Shown here: piece by piece, positions 28,282 through 30,745 of the stretch
How the letters are laid out: each line of letters starts with the position of its first letter
How positions within the stretch are numbered: position 1 is the stretch's first letter
NCBI GenBank assembly: GCA_017439965.1
Contig: JAFSID010000017.1
Span: 1-34,759 of the forward strand
DNA length: 34,759 bases
Source: Clostridia bacterium
GTDB taxonomy: Bacteria > Bacillota > Clostridia > Oscillospirales > SIG627
Direction of reading: 5' to 3'
Made by a program: the position numbers and the translations under genes
Notes under the pieces: model-generated
Databases searched by the model: none
Told to the model about the DNA's origin: nothing
The model's input: only the letters and a program-made list of their open reading frames with translations

Positions 28282-28445
28282 ATGAAATCCGTGCAAGCAC
28301 GGATGAAATCTGCTATGCAGATGAAATCTTCGGCTACGCCTCAGATGAAATTAAATCCACCCATCCGCCGTCGAGGCGGATTTCATCTAACAAAGTTGGA
28401 TTTCATCGTCGCAGACGATTTCGCCCACCCGCAAGGGTGGATTTA
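28282..28445. repeat. String of mini-hairpins joined by ATGAAATC motifs
   Basis: Four ATGAAAT(C) copies (28282, 28303, 28321, 28345) alternate with small hairpins: CCGTG/CACGG, CTGC/GCAG and GGC/GCC. GATTTCAT copies on the right half (from 28379 and 28399) are complementary to them. ATCCGCC/GGCGGAT, ATCGTC/GACGAT and CCACCC/GGGTGG add further stems. TAAATCCACCC near 28352 is the exact complement of GGGTGGATTTA at 28435-28445. The design resembles a REP/MITE-like intergenic element; similar ATGAAATC elements are recalled from clostridial genomes, unverified here. Confidence 0.7.
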
Positions 28446-28447
28446 GT

Positions 28448-28482
28448 TGAAAAACCGACAAGTTGAAACTTGTCGGTTTTTC
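28448..28482 (-). terminator. Terminator of the tRNA-Ser gene
   Basis: CCGACAAG and CTTGTCGG form an 8-bp stem with a TTGAAA loop (28456-28477). A T run follows on the minus strand, directly after the CCA end of the tRNA. Confidence 0.88.
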
Positions 28483-28571
28483 TGGCGGAGGGAGTGGGAT
28501 TCGAACCCACGTGTGCTTGCGCACAAACGGTTTTCAAGACCGCCTCGTTATGACCGCTTCGATATCCCTCC
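28483..28571 (-). tRNA. tRNA-Ser (anticodon TGA)
   Basis: Minus-strand 89-nt type II tRNA. The acceptor GGAGGGA pairs with TCCCTCC, with discriminator G and an encoded CCA. The anticodon stem/loop is GCGGT-CTTGAAA-ACCG with anticodon TGA. The long variable arm contains GTGTGCTTGCGCAC-type pairing and the T arm is GTGGGTTCGAATCCCAC. Confidence 0.96.
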
Positions 28572-29916: not shown

Positions 29917-30473
29917 TTATGTTATTGTCTTGTTAAAGTAATGATTGCCAATTCTCCAGCCGTTTTCACCTTTTATGAAATTGAGAATTGAAGTGGTATA
30001 ATAAAAATCTGCAAGTATCGTAAAGCTGTCTTCTCCCTTTTCTAAGCATTTTACAGACTTCAAGGGATAGCAGTCAAGTCCTACACTTGGGATAACTCGA
30101 GATGCATAGAGGCTTCCGTCTTTTTCTATAAATTTTGCAGTGTAATTATCATCGCCGTTTATATTGGAGTTGAAAATGCGTTTTGCGGAGTTTTCTGTAT
30201 ATACGGCGTTTATCATTTCCCAAAGCTCAGCTTTGGTACTTATTTCTTTTAGCTTGTAGTATTTTAAACCGTTTTCGGATATTTCTTCCCCATTTCGAGA
30301 TAAAGCCCCATGACCTTGCTGTAAATTTTTAACGATTCTTCAATTAAAGGGGCTGAAATTTCTGCAATATCGCTGTCAGTTAAATTTGATATGGTTTTGT
30401 TTGTGTCTCTTTGGCAAGACACGGATAAAACCGTGAATAATATTGAGAATAAAAATACAAGTGCTTTTTTCAT
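29917..30473 (-). pseudogene. Small lipoprotein gene split by one frameshift
   Basis: The first frame (from ATG 30473, RBS AGGAG) encodes a lipoprotein signal (MKKALVFLFSILFTVLSVSC, Cys20) and stops at 30264. Adding one base in the GGGG run at about 30288-30291 joins it to the second frame. The joined region reads LYLEMGEEISENGLKYYKLKEISTKAELWEMINAVYTENSAKRIF and ends at 29917. The restored product of about 185 residues recalls the IseA/YoeB family of cell-wall DL-endopeptidase inhibitors (charged helix, then YTAKFIEKDGSLYASRV), but that is a tentative reading. It sits downstream of the structured RNA and its terminator. Confidence 0.7.
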
Positions 30474-30502: not shown

Positions 30503-30532
30503 AAAAAAGTGCGCCTATCGAAATAAGCGCAC
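30503..30532 (-). terminator. UUCG-capped terminator before the small lipoprotein gene
   Basis: On the minus strand, GTGCGCTTAT (30532-30523) pairs with ATAGGCGCAC (30518-30509) around a TTCG loop. Six T's follow (30508-30503). It ends 30 nt before the lipoprotein start. Confidence 0.93.
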
Positions 30533-30710
30533 AAAAACACAAATTCCGATAGTCGCCAAACTAACTTTATGTGAACGGGGTTTACCACAATTACATAAAT
30601 GGAATTTGCATTTTATCAAATTCAATAATGTAATTGTGCACGAAAATGGGTATAAATATCCCATAAAAAACAGCACACCTATCTTTTCACATATATTTAG
30701 TTAGTTTGGC
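30503..30710 (-). ncRNA. Structured RNA: attenuator/riboswitch-like leader or small RNA
   Basis: Minus-strand transcript predicted from about 30710 to 30503. The closing helix is GCCAAACTAAC (30710-30700) with GTTAGTTTGGC (30565-30555), extended by TATGTGAA (30693-30686) with TTCACATA (30575-30568). Inside are a small hairpin ATGGG/CCCAT (30664-30646) and a long hairpin CACAATTACAT (30638-30628) with ATGTAATTGTG (30596-30586), topped by GAATTTG/CAAATTC. After the closing helix, CTATCG (30552-30547) can pair with CGATAG (30520-30515) inside the terminator, which would break it. I do not recognise the class. Whether it is a leader of the lipoprotein gene or a stand-alone RNA cannot be told. Confidence 0.7.
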
Positions 30711-30716
30711 ATAAAT

Positions 30717-30745
30717 ATTGTAGCATATAATTGAATAAAATGCAA
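30717..30745 (-). promoter_or_regulatory. Sigma-A promoter of the structured RNA
   Basis: On the minus strand: -35 TTGCAT (30745-30740), 17-bp spacer, -10 TACAAT (30722-30717). The expected start is near 30710, exactly where the closing helix begins. Confidence 0.8.

Follow-up and report, generated by a model that had tools for sequence, protein, structure and literature searches.

A candidate class of structured leader RNAs in gut Clostridia, most likely transcription attenuators of riboswitch type

Transcription-terminating riboswitches, such as the platforms of the purine, lysine and SAM-I type, are multi-helix 5' leaders closed by a helix P1, in which a switching strand, the P1 3' strand and a terminator ahead of the start codon exchange partners. 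The c-di-GMP riboswitches (GEMM and c-di-GMP-II) occur in several copies per genome in Clostridia and precede diverse surface-protein genes. RNAs of the put, EAR and LoaP type act on distant terminators through the polymerase or NusG-like factors. The locus described here lies in a window of 34,759 nucleotides, the whole stretch of clostridial DNA that was analyzed, in which a sequence-only reading had proposed a cis-regulatory transcriptional switch outside the known classes. This core claim is supported by the lack of an Rfam match, the many homologues and their covariation. Judged by sequence comparison, the element most likely represents a new class of structured leader RNA, namely a transcription attenuator of riboswitch type.

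The proposed minus-strand promoter is present with both hexamers (TTGCAT, 30745-30740; TACAAT, 30722-30717) and the 17-nt spacer, and is backed by its conserved position in homologues. It was not listed by a consensus promoter scan of the window, because it matches the consensus only in part. Among 110 homologues the distance from the end of the -10 hexamer to GCC is 6 nt in 74 and 7 nt in 14, the spacer between -35 and -10 measures 17 nt in 81, and a TG usually precedes the -10 hexamer (extended -10). As the -10 hexamer ends 6-7 nt before GCCAAAC in 88 of the 110 sequences, transcription is expected to start at P1 or no more than 1-2 nt away from it. The leader has a fold energy of -68.4 kcal/mol, a value that none of 200 dinucleotide shuffles reaches (z = -6.6). 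Its domains (Table 1) are arranged in the order P1, a conserved AAUA, P2, P3, P4 and back to P1; strand E (GACyAUCGGAGUUUGCGUUUUU) follows directly after P1 and is itself followed by the terminator. In our own fold the closing helix comprises 12 bp (30710-30699 with 30566-30555), a 5-nt internal loop and 7 bp, which agrees with the approximately 19 bp described before, and the hairpins reported inside it are also found. The same holds for the terminator hairpin at 30532-30509, with UUCG and U6, the end of which is about 30 nt away from the downstream ATG (30473). The element shows what is characteristic of attenuator leaders, a conserved 5' leader whose own terminator lies near a start codon; all members of the family likewise end in a terminator.

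Table 1. Positions of the leader RNA, its promoter and the gene behind it in the window.
Feature	Position	Strand	Basis or remark
Promoter TTGCAT - 17 nt - TACAAT, TGC just before -10	30717..30745	-	Sequence; -10 position conserved in 110 homologues
Whole leader RNA element, 208 nt	30503..30710	-	Covariance-model match 168.6 bits, E = 7.3e-31 (this copy is also 1 of the 37 sequences used to build the model)
P1 5' strand GCCAAACUAACU, x' at 30703	30699..30710	-	P1 paired in 149-157 of 157 members per pair; two-sided changes at several pairs
P1 3' strand AGUUAGUUUGGC, x at 30562	30555..30566	-	UAGU (30563-30560) alternatively pairs with ACUA of strand E
P2 5' strand, partner 30574-30568	30687..30693	-	Own fold; family duplex energies
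P2 3' strand	30568..30574	-	Own fold; family duplex energies
P3 hairpin AUGGG...CCCAU, then conserved U-run	30646..30664	-	Own fold; family comparison
P4 hairpin; basal helix 30638-30628 with 30596-30586	30586..30638	-	Own fold; family duplex energies
Segment C AAAAUGCAAAUUCC, apical A-tract and P4 3' arm	30601..30614	-	C:E energies, own versus swapped
Strand E GACUAUCGGAAUUUGUGUUUUU, pivot between P1 and terminator, y at 30551	30533..30554	-	Family comparison
Antiterminator arm within E CUAUCGGAA, partner 30523-30515	30544..30552	-	Family comparison and duplex energy
Intrinsic terminator, UUCG loop, U6, z at 30516	30503..30532	-	Terminator scan and covariation
Start of controlled lipoprotein gene, ATG 30473, frame of first 59 residues	30300..30473	-	
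Rest of lipoprotein gene, other frame	29917..30300	-	Resembles IseA-type inhibitor PF16800 weakly (E = 6.4e-5, short of curated cut-off)

The comparison with Rfam 15 covered the window together with 40 member loci, which represent both length types. At the gathering threshold no family matched the element, and the matches elsewhere in these 41 sources were confined to tRNAs and Gut-1. At a relaxed E-value the window gave chance-level matches only, all below gathering, and no T-box match was obtained from the window or the 40 loci. For the window copy, the earlier remark that the RNA could not be assigned to a known class holds at either threshold. Literature searches, which covered part of the field and main texts only, found no description of the element. 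The main texts of PMC8632094 and PMC11109978 (Weinberg, Breaker and co-workers) contain no fitting description by keyword, and no match occurs in the outline and the section on cis-acting candidates of PMC8040213 (Fremin and Bhatt). An unnamed entry may exist in the supplementary lists of these papers.

At least 157 non-redundant members belong to the family. Comparison by blastn with 58 relatives detected diverged copies in about ten genomes, several of which carry more than one. Within the order, 51 of 394 genomes contain the pattern TTKGCGACWAYYGGRGTTTGCRTTTT behind P1, whereas a reversed control pattern is nearly absent. Public genome contigs carry the pattern in at least 118 places; among the matches listed, the 80 with titles are Clostridia or Bacillota records, nearly all of them metagenome-assembled gut genomes. 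With a covariance model (R1), built from 37 sequences, members were detected in 73 of the 291 genomes that represent the class; a sample of 298 further genomes from the phylum contained none. Eight carrier genomes show 6-14 matches to the model each, of which a few are weak antisense echoes of real copies. Homologues and covariation, named beforehand as the check on the proposed switch, are thus plentiful in Clostridia and strong, respectively. The window's own genome harbors two full copies (168.6 bits for the copy used in building the model, and 148.6 bits) and one degenerate copy (43.7 bits). The third copy in this genome (G000:C23:1990-2122) is of the shorter type and its terminator has decayed after the U-tract. 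Two length types occur, one of about 200 nt and one of about 160 nt without P3. Tandem pairs about 230-350 nt apart were observed at L095:2160-2702, L174:2834-3233 and L290, one copy of the L174 pair being without a clear P1. About 70 nt ahead of some members (L012, L015 and L095), upstream of the promoter, there is a common TCTCGGAAGGTAA-like motif that may be a regulatory site. The element was not found in phage and plasmid collections; three IMG/VR contigs match the pattern and may be host fragments.

The comparison across the family shows that P1, P2 and P4 form. P1 is paired at every position at the frequencies given in Table 1, with two-sided changes even at the conserved base (GCC/GGC, GCG/CGC, ACC/GGU, GUC/GAC and GCU/AGC). 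For the terminator and P1 together the covariation score is 0.550, as against 0.184 in shuffled and at most 0.09 in slid alignments. The family duplex energies amount to -17.1 kcal/mol for P2 and -17.3 kcal/mol for P4, compared with -8.3 (sd 0.25) and -6.7 kcal/mol (sd 0.23) when partners are swapped between members, so that both lie at least 35 sd below the swapped values. Helix lengths had been used to predict that P2 and P4 pack in parallel; the correlation was negative instead of positive, and the idea was dropped.

Strand E was found to have three conserved, predicted partners, which are mutually exclusive because they share bases: segment C, the terminator loop with the 3' arm, and the 3' strand of P1. 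In the pairing with the terminator (E:G), CyAUCGGAG faces CUUCGGUzG over 9 bp. In this duplex 96.2% of cells are paired, the covariation score is 0.325 (0.211 shuffled, at most 0.13 slid), and at least eight of the nine pairs are present in 142 of 157 members, compared with 53 of 157 for a reversed-E control. The segment CTATCG (30552-30547), previously suggested as antiterminator, does pair with the terminator and extends to these 9 bp. The pairing with segment C of P4 (AAAAAUGCAAAUUCC with GGAGUUUGCGUUUUU) comprises 14-15 bp; segment C can pair alternatively with the local GAAUUUG (30623-30617). In 36 members with divergent E, the energy of C:E is -17.8 kcal/mol for the own partners and -13.95 kcal/mol (sd 0.41, z -9.4) for swapped ones, with every element free to choose its best A-tract in the control. 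Some segment-C anchors were chosen partly by complementarity to E, which the swap control corrects in the duplex test only; a separate C:E covariation set of 32 rows, from which 13 of 45 sequences were left out mostly because of a poorly placed C segment, carries this anchor bias uncorrected. The third pairing, UxGU of P1 with ACyA of E, has x and y paired in 154 of 156 members, but its 4-bp hairpin is weak beside the 12-bp P1.

On a tree built without the bases x, y and z, changes between purine and pyrimidine were counted 20 times at x and 21 times at y, 18 of them on shared branches out of 310, and y and z changed together 14 times; these counts are approximate, as the tree was derived from short RNAs. 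The chain x'-x-y-z would thereby connect P1 with the terminator by way of the switching strand, as a relay of competing helices would be expected to do. Terminator and antiterminator are mutually exclusive and are kept by compensatory change. A further partner of E proposed earlier, at 30683-30679, exists in the window copy, but its complementarity across the family (6.74 of 9 pairs) does not exceed that of the control (6.92). Instead of 30683-30679, the P1 3' strand and the A-tract in the central hairpin are the conserved competitors of CTATCG. The energies in the window copy are -15.3 kcal/mol for C:E, -10.0 kcal/mol for E:G and -4.1 kcal/mol for the local apical hairpin; the value for the terminator, -10.6 kcal/mol, was computed on a stretch starting just inside its 5' arm.

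In most members a start codon with a Shine-Dalgarno sequence follows 18-40 nt after the terminator on the same strand. A set of 121 downstream proteins includes 72 that are without a relative in it, and a lipobox-like motif is present in 32. Pfam assigned BspA-type leucine-rich repeats (LRR_5) to 10 of 114 downstream proteins, a zinc ribbon to 7, MazE/AbrB to 4 and AMP-binding to 3, the others being scattered. The downstream genes show no shared metabolic theme or pathway, and PADLOC and PHROGs revealed no common theme among them either; many are short single genes. A small cysteine-rich protein of about 55-125 aa (..TGI.LTPG....C.GNG...CCCDECDY..C) recurs behind the element (L252, L280, L248, L246, L299, L245, L074, L107, L037 and others). 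Three of these proteins matched no NCBIfam model; possibly they are metal-binding or modified peptides. Genome G498 encodes five paralogous small membrane proteins (L272, L273, L274, L244 and L275), each with its own copy of the element, which share the motif ..SPVRSIEVRDLS.EEIYVGE..YIIDISGG... The lipoprotein gene of the window (30473-29917, minus strand) has an apparent frameshift near 30300: 59 residues (MKKALVFLFSIL...) are in frame and the IseA-like part is in another. It is followed by a second lipoprotein gene. Downstream of the lipoprotein genes a Gut-1 RNA (RF01706, 63.5 bits) is located at 28375-28449 on the minus strand, adjoined by a tRNA at 28486-28571. Instead of an evident metabolic pathway, the genes behind the element encode lipoproteins of the surface, proteins with leucine-rich repeats, small regulators and uncharacterized small proteins. 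This mixture hints at a global signal of the kind that c-di-GMP riboswitches have.

We consider it likely that the element is a self-contained transcription attenuator consisting of a promoter, a sensing domain and a terminator directly before the gene. Pairing of E with C, with or without the P1 strand, would occupy GGAG and allow the terminator to fold, which would release an RNA of about 205 nt (OFF). C:E, possibly together with the E:P1 hairpin, may be the default state. If a signal held C inside P4, E could pair with the terminator loop and arm as antiterminator and the gene would be transcribed (ON). This ON/OFF direction is what we infer; a metabolite, a protein or another RNA are candidates for the signal. 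As far as the comparative evidence goes, the element most likely switches many surface and accessory genes by the choice between stop hairpin and read-through. The A-tract loop (AUGCAAAUUCC) was considered as the start of a leader peptide; this was rejected by inspection, because the recurring AUG of the loop is often ACG or GCG. The position of the A-tract between two U-tracts, one upstream and one in strand E, would allow a U-A-U triple helix. Such triple helices occur in telomerase RNA and MALAT1. It is conceivable, though doubtful, that about ten attenuators per genome constitute a global RNA signalling system of gut Clostridia, in which a U-A-U triple-helix-like core senses a shared signal, or released RNAs interact via C/E, and surface and accessory genes are thereby coordinated.

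A protein-binding leader or a signal for processive antitermination similar to put, EAR or LoaP, in which the RNA is bound by RNA polymerase itself or by a cellular factor instead of a small ligand, appears somewhat unlikely. The great diversity of the genes downstream hints at a global signal, and the conserved helices without an obvious small pocket, together with the strongly conserved A-tract and U-tract, would suit such a factor. However, terminator and antiterminator both belong to the unit and show coupled changes, which makes polymerase modification needless as an explanation, and the many short, single genes under control also argue against it. A leader bound by a protein would be one particular case of the attenuator model. 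That the element chiefly yields a trans-acting small RNA of about 160-210 nt, with the genes behind served by leaky read-through and C and E perhaps pairing between copies, seems unlikely. The element does have its own promoter and terminator, and C and E are nearly invariant among copies of the long type. Three species of genus g184 furthermore harbor stand-alone copies (L228, L233 and L236; e.g. L236:441-616) between a RelB-like antitoxin gene and the convergent hpf, a ribosome hibernation factor gene. These copies are of the shorter type and have no gene behind them; their C, E and terminator are identical in the three species and the 5' half varies. A pure cis switch leaves them unexplained, and some members may therefore act as small RNAs. 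However, most copies lie on the same strand at the short distance given above from a start codon with a Shine-Dalgarno sequence, and an antiterminator kept by coupled changes would be superfluous in a stand-alone RNA. A mobile DNA repeat (miniature transposon) with P1 as terminal inverted repeat, as the patchy distribution, the many copies per genome, the inverted repeat itself and the unrelated neighbor genes might suggest, is highly improbable, because diverged copies of the same genome keep P2, P4, E:G and C:E by compensatory changes, the promoter is outside the repeat and keeps a constant distance from it, and most copies are followed by a gene in the same orientation.

The attenuator reading describes what appears to be a large regulatory RNA class of strand-exchange design in common, uncultured gut bacteria, and a regulon of several hundred genes would open up once its trigger is found. 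The class, the A-tract switch and the broad accessory regulon appear to be new; the kind of mechanism is already known. The candidate RNA sets of PMC8632094, PMC11109978 and PMC8040213, in the parts of these papers compared, likewise comprise computational, unassigned structured RNAs, some with terminators. Like the put, EAR and LoaP RNAs, the element is a structured leader that would act on termination, but in the element the terminator belongs to the conserved unit. With the c-di-GMP riboswitches it shares multiple copies before diverse surface-protein genes, whereas it has no Rfam match to GEMM or c-di-GMP-II and its helices differ. The terminating riboswitches resemble it, on sequence evidence, in the multi-helix leader closed by P1 and in strand exchange. 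The element differs from them in that it has no Rfam match, in that a long A-tract pairs with the switching strand, in that its predicted antiterminator would seize the terminator loop, and in that its genes show no shared pathway.
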